The notes under the pieces were generated by a model. It was given only the letters and a program-made list of their open reading frames with translations, had not been told where the DNA came from and did not search any database. A stretch of 14,554 nucleotides of DNA. It comes from Candidatus Hydrogenedentes bacterium CG07_land_8_20_14_0_80_42_17 (lineage in GTDB: Bacteria > UBA8481). The stretch's first letter is position 1. The number at the start of each line of letters is the position of its first letter. The stretch is from the NCBI GenBank assembly GCA_002780065.1, contig PEWQ01000021.1:1-14554 (forward strand). The letters are read 5' to 3'. Made by a program: the position numbers and the translations under genes. Below, in pieces: positions 8,194 to 14,334 of the stretch.

Positions 8194-11100
8194 ATGCTGA
8201 AGATCATTCGCCGTAAATATTGTCAAAAAGAAGGAAGAATATTATTTCGAGTAATTGCAATAATTGCGGTTCTTGCCTTATTATTTTTTCTAAAAATCAA
8301 GTTAGAAAAAACAATAACAGAAAAACTTGATATCGAATTGAAGAGGAGTATAGGCCGAAGCGTTTCAGTCGAAAATCTTAAACTTTTTCTTCCTGTCAAA
8401 ATTGAGAGAATAATAATTTCCAGCGGTGACGAATTCGACAAGACTCCGCTCGGAGAAGTAACCGGAATCACTGCATGGCCTAATTTACTTTCACTTTTAG
8501 TTTTGAATCCGCAAATAGATAAAATCAACGCAGAGCAAATCACGCTGATAATAAGAAAACGCGCAGACGGCTCGTGGAACACTCGAGGACTTTTTCCTCT
8601 GGAACCTGCCGAAAAGCCGAAGATAAATTCGATCTCCACACCGAATATGGTCATTTATTTAGATAATGGAGAAAAAACTTATCAAAGAGATTTCAAAGCC
8701 TCTATTCAGCTCGGCAATAAAGGCGCTTTCAGCTTGGATTTTAGCGATTCAAAACTTAAAGGGCTTCTAACTTATTCAGGTAAAAAAGTTTCGCCTTTGA
8801 AATTCAATATGAAATTAGAGCTAGATTCCTACGTAATTTTCGACAGAATAAAAAACAGCCGCTTCGAGGCAGAATATTTAACTGAATCGGGTATCATAGA
8901 TTTTAGACTGTCAGCCTTAATCTCGGATACTGCTGCGAATATGTCAGGGAGAATTTCATTCGATTCTAATTCGATCAGATGTGACTCTTCAATCTGGTCA
9001 TTCAACGGAACTGAAGGCAGAATGAAATTAATCGTTGACGATTTTAAAAATAAGTTTTTTAGATTTGAAGCAGCAGGAGCCATAAATGTTTCCGCTGTGC
9101 TTCTTGACTCAAAGGCAAAAGCAGGAGATCTGAAGATCAGCAAGGCATCTCTAAGCGGATACTTTGAAAAGGAATGGAAGATTTCAGCCGACATTAAAAT
9201 TTCAGGGCTTGAATACACTTCGCCTCTTATTGAAGATCTCAATTTTGATGGAACTATCGAAGGTTCAGCGGATAAAAATTTCGTTCTCAAACCGAACACT
9301 TCCAAAGGTCGTCTTTCATTCAGAAGAGCCTTGATCGAAAAATACGATGTCAAGAATGCCGACTTCGATTTTGTTTGGAGCAATGATAATCTGAATCTCA
9401 CAGGAGCGGCGAATTTTTCAGAAGGGAAAATTTCTGCAAAAGGTCTCGATATAAAACTGGATTCTCTTTATCATCCGAAGCGCGCAGAGGGCAAGGTTTC
9501 TATAAAAAGCGTAGATGTCAGCCAATACGGAATAAAAGTCGATGACCTGCAGTTATTCAATATTACCGGTGAATTCTTTATCGATTTTGAGAAGCGCAAA
9601 GTTTGGCAATTGCAAAAGGTTTCCGGTCAGATGCGAGATATGGATTATTCGTTCAGAGGCGACAGAGGCAGAGTAATAAAAGGAACCGCAGATTTTTCGA
9701 TAAATTCGAGAGACAAATTCGACGGAAAATTTAGAGGCAATGTAGAAGCATTAGGCGGCATTGGAGATATGAATCTTGAGATTGGCATGTCGAAAGTTGT
9801 ATATGCCGAAATTAAATTGAGCGGCATCAGGACAAAAAGAATTGCAACAGTATTTCCAAGTGAAGGTTCAAAAAAGGCGATAGATTTTGCAGAGAAAATA
9901 GATCTCGATGGAAAATTAAAAGCCGGAGTCCAACCAGAGGAATGGCAGTATGACGGCAGCATAAGCTCTTCGTCGTTCAAAATTATAAATGATGCCGGCA
10001 GAGCGCTCATATTGCCAATAACTGCTGAAGTTAAATGTTCGTTTTCAGAAAAGAATTCATCAGTATTTATTGATAAGCTCAAGTTAAATAGTCGTGGAAC
10101 TCAAAATGAAATGACAATTTTAAATCCATTTGTCTACGATGGAAAAAAGTTTTCAAATTCTATAGCAATTACTAGGCTTGATATTGATGAAGCGGTAAAG
10201 ATAGCAAAATGGCTGAAGCCGGATCTAAAGATATCGAGTAGAAATCTCGAAGGCGGATTCAAAAACGGACAGCTGAATGTTTTCTATAATTTGCCTGAAT
10301 GGAAAATCGAAGTAAAAAATCTGGACGGAAATTTTAATGTCAATAATTCACCTTTGGTTTTAAATATATCGTCATCTGAAATTTCAGATAAAGGAATCGC
10401 TTTGCTGATAAACATTGAAAATTGTTTTCCTAACTCAATCTATAAATGGGCTTCGGAAGAATCCGAAAAGGTGCCTGACAAGATTGCGGAGATGAAAGGA
10501 AGTGCAGGCGGTATTGTTGAAGTAGTAAGCAAGACATGGAATGATGCTCCTGACATTCGAGCCACATTAGAATTCAAAAACTTTTCCATCGATTTCCCTA
10601 CACAGGATATTTCCTTTCAAGGTATAGAGGGTAAGCTGCCCGTAATCTGGCAAATAGGCTCTAATATAAGTGTTGACAGTTGGATTACAGGAAAAATACA
10701 TGTAAGCAAATTAAAGTATGGAGCATTTTATGTGACTGATATCAATACATTTTGCGGTTTCAACGAAAAGCATCTCTATCTTGACAAGATCAATTATTTA
10801 TTTGCCGAAGGTCATGGCAAAGCGGCATGCTTTGTCAATTTGGAAGATTGGCAAAATCCAAAAACTGTAATTAAAGGAACATTCGAAGATGTTAATTCAG
10901 AGATCGTATACAATACAATGCAACCGTATCAAGGAAAGTTTGAAGGTTTGGCCAATGGCCAATTCGAAATAAGTATGCATCAGCATAGGTTCGATAAATT
11001 CGATCTCGATTTCATAATCAATGATGGAATATTGGGATCTCATCTCTTAAAAATGATTTCAGCGCAAGCCGGTAATTCATTAGCGAAGACTGTTTTGGAT

Positions 11101-11448
11101 TCACTAGAAGTATGGTATTACAAAAAAATGACAATCAAAGTCAAATTACATGAAAATTCCTACGACTTGGATGTGCTCAAAGAAAAGTTTTCTGATCCTG
11201 CTGATTGGAACAACAGAAACGAATTTTTAGTTGATCTATCAATTAAAGGTCAAGCTCGTTCTCCAAAAAATAGGTATATCGGAGTGTCAAACGTTGAAGG
11301 AGATACAGCGGCGGGCAGGCCCGATCATATGTGGATAGCCAATCTTTTACCGACCAACATATTTCTTAACCTTCTGCAGATGAATGTTCGTATAGAAAAT
11401 ATGCCTCTGAGATTTGTGATGAATTTAGTCGGAAAGCGATTGAAGTAA
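8194..11448 (+). CDS. Large AsmA-like envelope protein
   Basis: A 1084-residue protein with one N-terminal membrane segment (about residues 16-33) after a basic start, then a long periplasmic part rich in alternating beta-strand patterns. The first 150 residues are typical of AsmA: an amphipathic stretch ending in GRSVSVENLKLFL, then IDKINAEQITLIIRKRADGSWN. Near residues 905-950 the segment GKFEGLANGQFEISMHQHRFDKF...INDGIL matches the C-terminal AsmA/DUF3971-type repeat, and the protein ends in a short basic tail. Members of this superfamily (AsmA, TamB, YhdP, YdbH) form grooved beta rods linking inner and outer membranes and carry phospholipids; which branch this one belongs to is not clear. 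It is a single-gene unit divergent from the ABC exporter, with 64 nt between start codons. No alternative ATG, GTG or TTG start precedes the membrane segment. Confidence 0.85.
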   Translation: MLKIIRRKYCQKEGRILFRVIAIIAVLALLFFLKIKLEKTITEKLDIELKRSIGRSVSVENLKLFLPVKIERIIISSGDEFDKTPLGEVTGITAWPNLLSLLVLNPQIDKINAEQITLIIRKRADGSWNTRGLFPLEPAEKPKINSISTPNMVIYLDNGEKTYQRDFKASIQLGNKGAFSLDFSDSKLKGLLTYSGKKVSPLKFNMKLELDSYVIFDRIKNSRFEAEYLTESGIIDFRLSALISDTAANMSGRISFDSNSIRCDSSIWSFNGTEGRMKLIVDDFKNKFFRFEAAGAINVSAVLLDSKAKAGDLKISKASLSGYFEKEWKISADIKISGLEYTSPLIEDLNFDGTIEGSADKNFVLKPNTSKGRLSFRRALIEKYDVKNADFDFVWSNDNLNLTGAANFSEGKISAKGLDIKLDSLYHPKRAEGKVSIKSVDVSQYGIKVDDLQLFNITGEFFIDFEKRKVWQLQKVSGQMRDMDYSFRGDRGRVIKGTADFSINSRDKFDGKFRGNVEALGGIGDMNLEIGMSKVVYAEIKLSGIRTKRIATVFPSEGSKKAIDFAEKIDLDGKLKAGVQPEEWQYDGSISSSSFKIINDAGRALILPITAEVKCSFSEKNSSVFIDKLKLNSRGTQNEMTILNPFVYDGKKFSNSIAITRLDIDEAVKIAKWLKPDLKISSRNLEGGFKNGQLNVFYNLPEWKIEVKNLDGNFNVNNSPLVLNISSSEISDKGIALLINIENCFPNSIYKWASEESEKVPDKIAEMKGSAGGIVEVVSKTWNDAPDIRATLEFKNFSIDFPTQDISFQGIEGKLPVIWQIGSNISVDSWITGKIHVSKLKYGAFYVTDINTFCGFNEKHLYLDKINYLFAEGHGKAACFVNLEDWQNPKTVIKGTFEDVNSEIVYNTMQPYQGKFEGLANGQFEISMHQHRFDKFDLDFIINDGILGSHLLKMISAQAGNSLAKTVLDSLEVWYYKKMTIKVKLHENSYDLDVLKEKFSDPADWNNRNEFLVDLSIKGQARSPKNRYIGVSNVEGDTAAGRPDHMWIANLLPTNIFLNLLQMNVRIENMPLRFVMNLVGKRLK

Positions 11449-11459
11449 AAAAAAAGAAG

Positions 11460-11476
11460 AACCACAGATTACACTG
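11460..11476. repeat. Short dispersed-repeat-like motif carrying the luxE-like stop
   Basis: AACCACAGATTACACTG lies in the 20-nt spacer between the AsmA-like gene and the convergent LuxE-like gene and runs into the end of the latter. The TAA stop (11471-11469) is inside it. CAGATTACACTG is the reverse complement of 5605-5616. I recall motifs of the CCACAGATTACAC type as frequent intergenic repeats in several bacterial lineages; that is recollection only. Confidence 0.4.
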
Positions 11477-12416
11477 TTGTTGAACAACCTTTAATTGGAG
11501 CGGATTTAATTCGTCCCTTCAGATGAAGTCTTCCCTCTTTGATATAGCCCAAATCAGCAGTCAGAATTCCGATGCTCGAACCAACATTAGCCAGATCGTA
11601 AATTGCAATCGCTCCGATATTTCCTTCGTCAACATCAAAAAGATTTTCCGGATTTAAAATTCTTATTCTTACCCACGGAGGAATTTTGAAGCCACGCATC
11701 TCCTCAGGTTTTTCCCATAGCGGGCTAGAAAGCTCACACATTCCGTATTCCGAAATAATCCTTGAAACAGGTATCGAAAACTTTTCGGAAATCATTATGT
11801 AAAGTTCATCTTTGGGAATTTCCCTCGTTCTGCCCTTGTATCCGCCAGTCTCAATCGCAATTGAGCCTTTAGGCAATCTAAAAACTTGATTCTTCTCTAT
11901 AGCTTCAACATAATTAAATGCCGCACCAATAAGCAATACCTGTGAATCTTTCTCGCATTCAAACTCTGCTTTTCCGAATTTTTCCGATATCCAATCTATC
12001 ATGCAAGCGAGAGATGAATTGTCGCGCTTTTCCCACAACGAAATGATTTTAAATCTATTTTCCCCCAGCGCCCAATCAGCTGCCTGAAGCGAAGCCGCTT
12101 CGTAAAGCTGAAGTGTCTCAAAATAATGTCTTCCGACATTATTTCTCGTAGTACCGCTCGATTCGAATACTCGAATCGCATTCTTTACATCGAACGAAGC
12201 GATCACATTGGAAGAGAAAAGTGAAACTGGGACAAGAGGAATCTCTCTCCAATCACAAGGCTTCTTTTGTGAAAGTCGTGCAATAGGTTTACACCGAGCC
12301 GCCTGAAAGGTATGAAGTGAAAGAGCTAATTCATTGAAAAGATCATTGTCTGAAACTCCATCGTGTCCTTGTCGAATGAGAGCAAGAATTCTATCTAGAA
12401 GTTTGTTTGATAGCAT
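11469..12416 (-). CDS. LuxE-type acyl-protein synthetase (ANL superfamily)
   Basis: A 315-residue protein of the LuxE family, relatives of the adenylate-forming enzymes. Visible motifs are ESSGTTRNNVGRHYF (85-99, ATP phosphate loop), ETGGYKGRTREI (189-200), ISEYGMCELSSPLW (221-234, adenine/Mg motif with Cys where Thr is usual), TADLG (286-290, ribose-binding Asp) and LKGRIKSAPIKGCS (299-312), which matches the conserved GR...RGCS end. LuxE itself activates fatty acids with ATP and passes the acyl group to a reductase (LuxC). No LuxC is visible here, so the substrate is unknown and could be another carboxylic or amino acid. The start overlaps the aminotransferase gene by 26 nt; GGAG lies 10 nt before ATG 12416. 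It is the last gene of the mtgA operon. Confidence 0.85.
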   Translation of the reverse strand: MLSNKLLDRILALIRQGHDGVSDNDLFNELALSLHTFQAARCKPIARLSQKKPCDWREIPLVPVSLFSSNVIASFDVKNAIRVFESSGTTRNNVGRHYFETLQLYEAASLQAADWALGENRFKIISLWEKRDNSSLACMIDWISEKFGKAEFECEKDSQVLLIGAAFNYVEAIEKNQVFRLPKGSIAIETGGYKGRTREIPKDELYIMISEKFSIPVSRIISEYGMCELSSPLWEKPEEMRGFKIPPWVRIRILNPENLFDVDEGNIGAIAIYDLANVGSSIGILTADLGYIKEGRLHLKGRIKSAPIKGCSTTV

Positions 12417-13632
12417 CGCGTAAAATCTCCAACCCTTCTTTCAGCAATTTATCCGAAATATTTAGAGCCGGAAGAAGAACAATAGTTTCGTGTACGAGTC
12501 CATCAACAAGAATTATCAATCCATTATCTAAAGCTATTTTTGCTGAGCGCAAAGCATCTCGAGAATTCTTACAATCGATTCCAAGCATCAATCCTCTGCC
12601 GCGCAGTGTCCATCCATTTTCTCGAACTGCATCGGACAGAAAATCGAATATGACTTTTCCTTTTTCCCGAGCAGAAATATGTAACTTTTCTTTTTGGATA
12701 ATTCCTATGACCTCGAGCGCGGCCGCCGAGCAAAGAGGATTGCCTAGAAAGGTAGAGGTATGAATAGAGTCTAATTCCTGTTTCGGCCATGAGTCCATGA
12801 TTTCAGCTCTAGCAAAAGATGCGGAAATAGGAAGCCCTCCTGCCATTCCTTTTCCGAGCGCAATTACATCAGGTTCTATGCCTTCATTCTGAAAAGCAAA
12901 GAGCGAGCCTGTTCTGCCGAATCCGGTCATTACTTCATCAAGGATCAAAAGAGCTCCTGAATCATGAACGCACTTAGAAAGTTCTGAAATAAATCCATCA
13001 GGAAACGGTCTAATCCCGCCTCTTCCTTGAATTGGTTCGAGCAAAACTGCTCCGACATCATTTCGCTTAAATTCTTTCTCAATAACTGCAAGAACTTCAT
13101 CAAATAAATTTTTATTATTATCCGGAAACGGCGCTCTGAAAAAAATATCCGCGGTCTGATCTAAAAACAATTCGGAAAAATCTTTTCTTCCCGCAGAGCG
13201 AAGAACTCCATATCCCAAACCATGGTATGCTCCTTCAAACACTATGACTCGAGGTTTGCCTGTATAAATTTTTGCAGTCTTCAAAGATGACTCAACAGCT
13301 TCCGTACCTGTACTCGATAAAATACCTTTTGCCGAAAAACCTAAAAGCCTTTCAATGGACTCCATAAGCTCCAATTTCGGCAATGAAGAGTATACGTCAC
13401 CCAAGCCGTGAATAAGAGATTCAGATTGAGTTTTGATTTTGCTGACAAGAAGCGGATGAGAAAATCCTACAGATGCCGCTCCAAAACCTGAAGAAAAATC
13501 GATATATTTTTTCCCTTCAGCATCCCACACTTCACTTCCCAAAGCTCGCAACCAAAATAATGTTTCGTGAGACGGAACTAAATTCGGAGATTCAACTCGC
13601 CTCAAGCGTTCGAGCAGATTCAAATGATTCAT
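12391..13632 (-). CDS. Class III pyridoxal-phosphate aminotransferase
   Basis: A 413-residue fold-type I aminotransferase of class III, the group containing acetylornithine, 4-aminobutyrate, omega-amino acid aminotransferases and glutamate-semialdehyde aminomutase. Key residues are the phosphate-binding STGTEA (107-112), EGAYHG (133-138, aromatic and His stacking on the cofactor), EPIQGRGG (199-206), LDEV with Asp232 contacting the pyridine nitrogen, ALGKGMAGG with Schiff-base Lys261, and HTSTFLGNPL (291-300). The length is normal and no catalytic residue is missing. The specific donor and acceptor cannot be read from sequence. The overlap with the LuxE-like gene suggests that the two act on the same molecule, for example amination of an aldehyde or keto acid followed or preceded by carboxylate activation. 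AAGGA lies 8 nt before ATG 13632, inside the end of mtgA. Confidence 0.92.
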   Translation of the reverse strand: MNHLNLLERLRRVESPNLVPSHETLFWLRALGSEVWDAEGKKYIDFSSGFGAASVGFSHPLLVSKIKTQSESLIHGLGDVYSSLPKLELMESIERLLGFSAKGILSSTGTEAVESSLKTAKIYTGKPRVIVFEGAYHGLGYGVLRSAGRKDFSELFLDQTADIFFRAPFPDNNKNLFDEVLAVIEKEFKRNDVGAVLLEPIQGRGGIRPFPDGFISELSKCVHDSGALLILDEVMTGFGRTGSLFAFQNEGIEPDVIALGKGMAGGLPISASFARAEIMDSWPKQELDSIHTSTFLGNPLCSAAALEVIGIIQKEKLHISAREKGKVIFDFLSDAVRENGWTLRGRGLMLGIDCKNSRDALRSAKIALDNGLIILVDGLVHETIVLLPALNISDKLLKEGLEILRDAIKQTSR

Positions 13633-13635
13633 CTT

Positions 13636-14334
13636 CTACATCCTTGCCAAAATCCGAGCGGCGCGTCGTTCTGTAAAGCGCGAATGATCCCTCGGATTAT
13701 GTCTTAAAGGCGAAGGCAAAACTGCGGCAAGATGCGCGGCTTGACCTCTTGAAAGGCCTTTCGCAGAAACTCTGTAATAATTTTTTGCCGCTGATTCCAC
13801 TCCGTAAATTCCTCTTCCCCACTCGACTACGTTGAGATATATCTCGAGTATCCTATCTTTTGGCAGAAGCAATTCGAGCCAAAGGGTTAAATAAATTTCC
13901 ACACCTTTTCTAAAAAATTTATCATATTTTGTAGCTCCTTCCCAGAGATACAAATTTTTCACCAGCTGCATGCTGATGGTGGAAGCTCCGCGCATTCTGC
14001 GGCCGTCATTGTAGTCATCGATCGCATCTTCAGCCTGTTCAAAATCAATTCCATCATGCTGAAAAAATTTAGCATCTTCCGCCGCAATGACTGCCCTTCT
14101 CATATACCGAGAAATATTATTAAGTTGAGTCCATGAGCGTTCGTACTTGAACTTTTCACCTTTGACAATCATACCCACGCATCTTTGAACCTGAATTGAA
14201 GTCACGTAAGGATTCAATTTATTCAAAGGCAAAAAAAGAATGACAGGAATAGAAACAGCAAGAATTACAAAGGCGGCGACTACTCGGAGGAGAAGTCTGA
14301 AACATCCTGAAGATTTTTTATTTTCTTTAGTCAT
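13636..14334 (-). CDS. mtgA: Monofunctional peptidoglycan glycosyltransferase MtgA
   Basis: MtgA (GT51) polymerises lipid II into glycan strands on the outer face of the inner membrane. The 232-residue protein has the standard length and layout: a short cytoplasmic start, one membrane anchor (about 15-36) and the GT51 domain. Visible motifs are AAEDAKFFQHDGID with the catalytic Glu86-Asp87, RGASTISMQLVKNLYL (115-130), KDRILEIYLNVVEWGRGIYGVESAA (159-183) with the second catalytic Glu171, and the Ala-rich QAAHLAAVLPSP (198-209). There is no penicillin-binding transpeptidase domain. ATG 14334 lacks a Shine-Dalgarno and overlaps the stop of a possible 15-codon ORF (ATGA). The aminotransferase gene starts 3 nt after its stop, so mtgA heads a three-gene operon. 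Confidence 0.94.
   Translation of the reverse strand: MTKENKKSSGCFRLLLRVVAAFVILAVSIPVILFLPLNKLNPYVTSIQVQRCVGMIVKGEKFKYERSWTQLNNISRYMRRAVIAAEDAKFFQHDGIDFEQAEDAIDDYNDGRRMRGASTISMQLVKNLYLWEGATKYDKFFRKGVEIYLTLWLELLLPKDRILEIYLNVVEWGRGIYGVESAAKNYYRVSAKGLSRGQAAHLAAVLPSPLRHNPRDHSRFTERRAARILARM

Follow-up and report, generated by a model that had tools for sequence, protein, structure and literature searches.

The window analysed here is a whole contig of 14,554 bp from a MAG (2.39 Mb, 87% complete; referred to as G000). The part of interest lies on the reverse strand and carries the following features:

13636-14334, reverse strand: mtgA (TIGR02070, 203 bits), upstream neighbour of the class III aminotransferase gene
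12391-13632, reverse strand: class III aminotransferase (AT), 413 aa, proposed transaminase of type A converting 7-formyl-7-deazaguanine to preQ1
13216-13218, reverse strand: Leu139 codon of the AT, at the position of GABA-AT Arg141
12850-12852, reverse strand: Lys261 codon of the AT, the PLP Schiff-base lysine
12478-12480, reverse strand: Val385 codon of the AT, at the position of GABA-AT Arg398
11469-12416, reverse strand: LuxE-like gene, 315 aa, carboxylate adenylase/acyl-enzyme synthetase, proposed activator of 7-carboxy-7-deazaguanine (CDG)
11730-11750, reverse strand: EYGMCEL motif of LuxE, with Cys where Thr is usual
11484-11486, reverse strand: Cys311 codon of LuxE, the proposed thioester-carrying Cys

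The AT and LuxE reading frames overlap by 26 nt (12391-12416), and the AT starts 3 nt after the end of mtgA; open reading frames and Pfam and TIGR matches bore out the sequence-only reading on both points. The three genes are probably co-transcribed, and 220 nt of DNA can be read upstream of mtgA before the contig ends. An overlapping AT-LuxE pair also occurs in G001 (48% and 44% identity to the window), the sole other genome of the window's order among those compared, the rest of the 98-genome sample described below being no closer than domain; because the pair recurs there, its arrangement is not due to chance. Neither in G001 nor at any further AT-LuxE locus with neighbours read does mtgA stand beside the pair. 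Among the loci read, the adjacency to mtgA, from which a link had been proposed, is therefore peculiar to the window, and mtgA is no functional part of the AT/LuxE system. On the other side, a gene for a 1084-aa AsmA/DUF748-like protein (8194-11448, forward strand) converges with the LuxE gene. G001 encodes a homologue of this protein (22% identity over 1036 columns, E 5e-61) at L057, 2728-5979, roughly 3 kb away from its LuxC gene, possibly a trace of former synteny.

The LuxE-like protein reaches PF04443 (E 6e-13, 49 bits; gathering cut-off 24.9) and does not reach NF052244, the equivalog of fatty-acid LuxE (43.7 bits; cut-off 550). Its predicted structure is a full-length ANL-type fold (pLDDT 89), and the nearest PDB matches of the model, PaaK, BT_0428 and ClxA, are mostly aromatic-acid adenylating enzymes. 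Relatives in genome contigs were found with an alignment query, a single-sequence scan giving none. Cys311 is invariant in 21 of 21 aligned LuxE proteins, phage ones included, and we take this conserved C-terminal Cys to be the acylated residue. The Cys in EYGMCEL, pointed out earlier as unusual, is indeed so: among the aligned rows only G001 has it too, and the remaining rows have Thr. The companion observation, that no LuxC reductase is visible, holds within the window but not genome-wide, as another contig (G000:C22) encodes a LuxC homologue (PF05893, 114 bits) with the catalytic motif GCLSPQ (Cys207). In G001, LuxC also lies on a contig apart from the AT-LuxE pair.

Gene neighbourhoods across genomes, the first check suggested with the sequence-only reading, showed that the pair is kept in G001 and that larger groupings occur elsewhere. 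Outside Bacteroidetes, LuxE and LuxC mostly adjoin and overlap. AT, LuxE and LuxC stand together in G030, in Verrucomicrobia (L061), Omnitrophota (L071), Minicystis rosea (L083) and Myxococcota (L134), and AT with LuxE in Omnitrophota L067, where the contig ends, and Myxococcota L117. Given this grouping in several genomes, conversion of an acid to an aldehyde and then to an amine is the natural reading of the chemistry. The neighbours of these genes provide a clue to the acid. In L061, queE, AT, LuxE and LuxC are contiguous, and the QueE is confirmed by a curated model (304 bits; cut-off 300); in four Verrucomicrobia (L069, L070, L073 and L084) queD directly follows LuxC, confirmed by a curated model for L069 and L084 (102 and 108 bits; cut-off 89). 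The position of queE before the trio and of queD behind LuxC points to CDG. In G121 and G106, queE adjoins the AT. A 109-aa QueF-family T-fold reading frame lies between AT and LuxE in G030 (L014, 10889-11218, reverse strand); it scores 30 bits to PF14489 and weakly matches the QueF-like archaeosine synthase. No preQ1, TPP or other Rfam riboswitch or family was found in the window and eight related loci (nine sources).

The AT matches Aminotran_3 (PF00202; E 2e-88, 297 bits, reaching the gathering score) and reaches none of the NCBIfam equivalogs, the best score being 262 bits against a cut-off of 552 (GABA / acetylornithine aminotransferase test). Type A was defined by a profile built from nine linked ATs and searched in 45 genomes with a LuxE match, 44 of them with a LuxE of the window's type and one, G096, with a classical LuxE. 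One match of at least 427 bits was obtained in 33 of the 45, every other match scoring at most 351 bits. Phylogeny, which had been proposed as a means of placing the AT, put it inside a clade of its own kind: type-A ATs are monophyletic in a quick tree (SH-aLRT 100). Lys occupies the Lys261 position in all 31 type-A ATs and in all 26 of the other class III ATs, and this residue and the catalytic Asp (Asp232 in the window) are invariant in type A. At the position of GABA-AT Arg141, 29 of 31 type-A ATs have Leu; at that of Arg398, Arg occurs in none of the 31, versus 14 of 26 other class III ATs from the same genomes. G110 has a partial type-A AT. A second AT clade has one member each in G013, G063, G100, G111, G129, G132 and G135, all lacking type A, and groups them with phage ATs (FastTree 0.955). 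In G013, LuxE overlaps a class I/II aminotransferase gene (PF00155) by 4 nt (L012, 10516-11724, forward strand), and the phage-clade class III AT is encoded in addition. Neither AT type was found in G096, which has QueF.

As for queuosine genes, G000 encodes FolE, QueE (its best families are QueE models), Tgt (464 bits; cut-off 307) and QueA (368 bits; cut-off 324). It gave no match to QueC, and the QueF model matched only FolE, a cross-match; in a MAG 87% complete such absences are weak evidence by themselves. Across the 44 genomes with window-type LuxE, true QueF (more than 60 bits) occurs in none, QueA in 43 and Tgt in 41. With G096 included, 42 of the 45 have Tgt and 44 have QueA, and G096 is the only one with true QueF or with QueC at full strength (240 bits). 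QueE, searched together with QueD and LuxE as one joined query, turned up in at least 38 of the 45 genomes, G000 among them. Two complete chromosomes, those of Minicystis rosea (G120) and of a Longimicrobiales genome (G131), also lack canonical QueC and QueF. Weaker matches were set aside. Seven other LuxE genomes have PP-loop proteins at 74-127 bits to the QueC model, and the two full reading frames scanned score below the TIGR00364 cut-off; short QueC matches on reading frames of 300-700 aa were taken, by length only, as other PP-loop enzymes. QueF matches of 20-30 bits on reading frames of about 200 aa mostly fit FolE by length, as confirmed for G000.

A second sample of 98 genomes was chosen regardless of LuxE, and 86 of them have QueA; many of the genomes counted in this analysis are incomplete MAGs. 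All six QueA-positive genomes with window-type LuxE lack QueF, whereas 50 of the 80 without this LuxE have it (Fisher p = 0.004, with genomes treated as independent of shared ancestry). The other 30, some of which have QueE, lack both QueF and window-type LuxE, so absence of QueF must have further causes, such as additional routes or salvage. Seven genomes (G004, G025, G036, G041, G079, G086 and G097) have QueA and a QueE match but neither QueF nor window-type LuxE; they may possess another preQ1 route or use CDG otherwise.

Phages carry the same genes. A scan of IMG/VR returned 11 contigs, some of them near-duplicates, with LuxE, LuxC and class III AT in this order; INPHARED gave no match to the phage LuxE. 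A reading frame with a QueD motif follows the AT in 10 of the 11 (L195 stops within the AT), and a queE-like radical SAM reading frame comes next in all four contigs read fully (L194, L198, L199 and L204), with folE in L198, L199 and L204. For L194, PHROGs and Pfam identify QueD and QueE, and for L199 FolE. Ahead of LuxE, all 11 have a reading frame with no Pfam match; the five PDB entries closest to its structural model (pLDDT 78) are all TGT enzymes (E 1e-4 to 1e-3, TM about 0.4), and judging from the model it is likely a DpdA-type transglycosylase. The phage stretches read, which are parts of phage genomes, showed neither QueC nor QueF. The same gene set thus spans many bacterial phyla and is also found in queuosine-gene clusters of phages.

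Conversion of CDG to preQ1 turns COOH into CH2NH2, exactly the step usually performed by QueC and QueF. The AT and LuxE belong to a gene set that is linked to queE, queD and folE in bacteria and phages, that co-occurs with Tgt and QueA, and that is found where QueF and canonical QueC are missing. We consider it very likely (probability about 0.85) that they are two members of a three-enzyme, nitrile-free route from CDG to preQ1 which replaces QueC and QueF. The reactions, their order, the cofactors and the amino donor are modelled on what LuxE, LuxC and class III transaminases are known to catalyse. CDG would be supplied by QueE, and LuxE would adenylate its carboxylate with ATP and form a thioester on the C-terminal Cys311. 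The acyl group would then pass to Cys207 in the GCLSPQ motif of LuxC, encoded on G000:C22, and this enzyme would reduce it to the 7-formyl base at the expense of NAD(P)H. Finally, the PLP-dependent AT would turn the aldehyde into the aminomethyl group of preQ1 (7-aminomethyl-7-deazaguanine), which would be used by Tgt and then by QueA to give queuosine. Several observations weigh against this route. In many genomes the AT lies apart from LuxE and LuxC; neither AT type was found in three genomes with window-type LuxE (G101, G107 and G117); and a search with a single QueD query (E<=1e-4) found no QueD in G000 or G001. As regards the amino donor, type A lacks both carboxylate-binding Arg residues of GABA-AT.

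The best-surviving alternative, which we regard as unlikely, is that these genomes salvage preQ1 or queuine, while LuxE, LuxC and AT make an amine or amino lipid from another carboxylate, such as a fatty or amino acid. Salvage is common among bacteria that have Tgt and QueA (PMC11130926; PMC6593275), and the 30 QueA-positive genomes lacking both QueF and window-type LuxE are in keeping with this. By annotation, LuxE and LuxC are families of fatty-acid enzymes, and the AT adjoins fabI, the sole lipid gene seen, in three Gemmatimonadota loci. However, QueE would be useless to a pure salvager of preQ1 or queuine, yet it is present in most of the LuxE genomes, including that of the window; phages combine folE, queD and queE with LuxE, LuxC and AT; and in Verrucomicrobia the genes are flanked by queE and queD. 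It had been reasoned that a luxC elsewhere in the genome and action as an ordinary fatty-acyl synthetase would speak against a new pathway. A luxC is indeed present, but fatty-acyl activation is disfavoured because the partner genes are those of queuosine, the LuxE model resembles aromatic-acid adenylases and the protein scores 44 bits against the 550 of the equivalog. Of the undescribed pathway proposed from sequence, with carboxylate activation and an amino group, the core idea has survived and become specific as queuosine. The targets then offered (amino acid loading, a carrier protein, lipid or cell wall) find no support.

It is still less probable that the trio acts on CDG but yields another 7-deazaguanine, e.g., the 7-formyl base, rather than preQ1 for tRNA. 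The TGT-like (DpdA-type) gene of the phages suggests DNA modification, whereas nearly all genomes with window-type LuxE have QueA, which acts on preQ1-tRNA; no other source of preQ1 was detected in them, and a conversion of acid into aldehyde and then amine supplies just the chemistry that is missing.

A third alternative arises from a sister module, LuxE-LuxC-SDR, found on plasmids of Pantoea, Azospirillum, Priestia and Lactiplantibacillus, with LuxE at 35-43% identity to that of G030:

L226, 7728-11273: LuxE-LuxC-SDR operon, Pantoea plasmid
L227, 7775-13911: LuxE-LuxC-SDR operon, Azospirillum plasmid
L225, 7989-13825: LuxE-LuxC-SDR operon, Priestia plasmid

The Pantoea and Azospirillum operons are each immediately preceded by a TPP riboswitch (72 and 59 bits, respectively), and those of Priestia and Azospirillum come with an NMT1/THI5-like ABC importer. 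The probable role of these operons is to salvage a thiamine pyrimidine in oxidised (carboxy) form, which we infer to be reduced to the alcohol. The clade nests, weakly placed, within the queuosine-type LuxE proteins; with such relatives in another role, LuxE alone is not diagnostic of a queuosine function. The module also suggests that the LuxE/LuxC family reduces heteroaromatic carboxylates, not fatty acids. On a Lactiplantibacillus plasmid (L228, 1624-6321), a solute carrier family 23 transporter precedes LuxE-LuxC-SDR, likely as another salvage operon for a heteroaryl carboxylate. A Priestia megaterium plasmid (L229, 2684-8616) encodes a more distant LuxE-family protein with a fatty acyl-AMP ligase, a phosphopantetheine carrier, an oxidoreductase and a cysteine desulfurase, and looks like a small biosynthetic cluster.

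From the riboswitches and importers of these operons it could be argued that the window's pair is a TPP-linked version, in which a carboxylated thiamine pyrimidine is reduced and the AT gives an aminomethyl pyrimidine. This is highly improbable: the Rfam search of the window and the eight related loci revealed no TPP riboswitch or other family, the thiamine operons have an SDR instead of an AT, and linkage to queE and queD points to queuosine. Modification of peptidoglycan, a carrier protein or a lipid tied to mtgA, for which the 3-nt spacing in the window speaks, hardly deserves credence, as the pair stands without mtgA in G001 and the other loci read and no carrier-protein gene was seen beside it.

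The preQ1 route can be set in a wider frame, which we hold to be rather likely, with less assurance than the route itself. LuxE/LuxC and a class III AT recruited at least twice would constitute a second complete queuosine pathway in many phyla and in phages, there maybe for DNA modification, and LuxE/LuxC would, with a sister LuxE/LuxC-SDR module reducing carboxy thiamine pyrimidine, represent a general family of heteroaryl-carboxylate reductases. Queuosine is a very widespread wobble-base modification. If the proposal is true, preQ1 formation has a second chemical solution; many Verrucomicrobia, Gemmatimonadota, Myxococcota, Omnitrophota, Sumerlaeota and Bacteroidota without QueC and QueF are queuosine makers; phages own another way to a 7-deazaguanine base; and widespread LuxE/LuxC genes, at present labelled as long-chain acyl enzymes, gain a function. 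The routes given in the literature are QueD-QueE-QueC-QueF or salvage (PMC11130926; PMC6593275; PMC6884629), and genomes are sorted into makers and salvagers on the assumption that preQ1 synthesis needs QueC and QueF (PMC11130926; PMC6593275). A paper on the QueC family mentions neither QueF nor an alternative (PMC13329287). Full-text searches of the open literature brought up no paper that connects LuxE/LuxC with queuosine; subscription papers and most preprints fall outside this scope, leaving priority uncertain.

Compared with known systems, the proposed route shares its start (CDG), its end (preQ1), the upstream FolE, QueD and QueE and the downstream Tgt and QueA with the QueC and QueF step. 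That step has amide and nitrile intermediates, whereas an aldehyde is proposed here, formed and used by an adenylase, an NAD(P)H reductase and a PLP transaminase; the two enzyme sets have no sequence relation. Bacterial luminescence employs the same LuxE and LuxC families, with the C-terminal Cys of LuxE and the GCLSPQ Cys of LuxC, in reducing an activated carboxylate to an aldehyde. No luciferase or LuxD occurs in the neighbourhoods read here, however; queuosine genes are the partners, LuxE does not reach the luminescence-type equivalog (44 versus 550 bits), and the aldehyde is proposed to undergo transamination. Type A has its fold and PLP-site Lys and Asp in common with GABA-AT, acetylornithine AT and PigE, but forms its own clade, remains below every NCBIfam cut-off and lacks the equivalents of Arg141 and Arg398. 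Cascades of carboxylic acid reductase and transaminase also lead from acid through aldehyde to amine; here LuxE and LuxC are separate, and the proposed substrate is heteroaromatic, in a natural tRNA-base pathway. The phage clusters for 7-deazaguanine DNA modification (PMC6884629) share folE, queD, queE and a TGT-like protein with the LuxE-type phage contigs; where the former have QueC and QueF or QueF-L, the latter have LuxE, LuxC and a class III AT instead.
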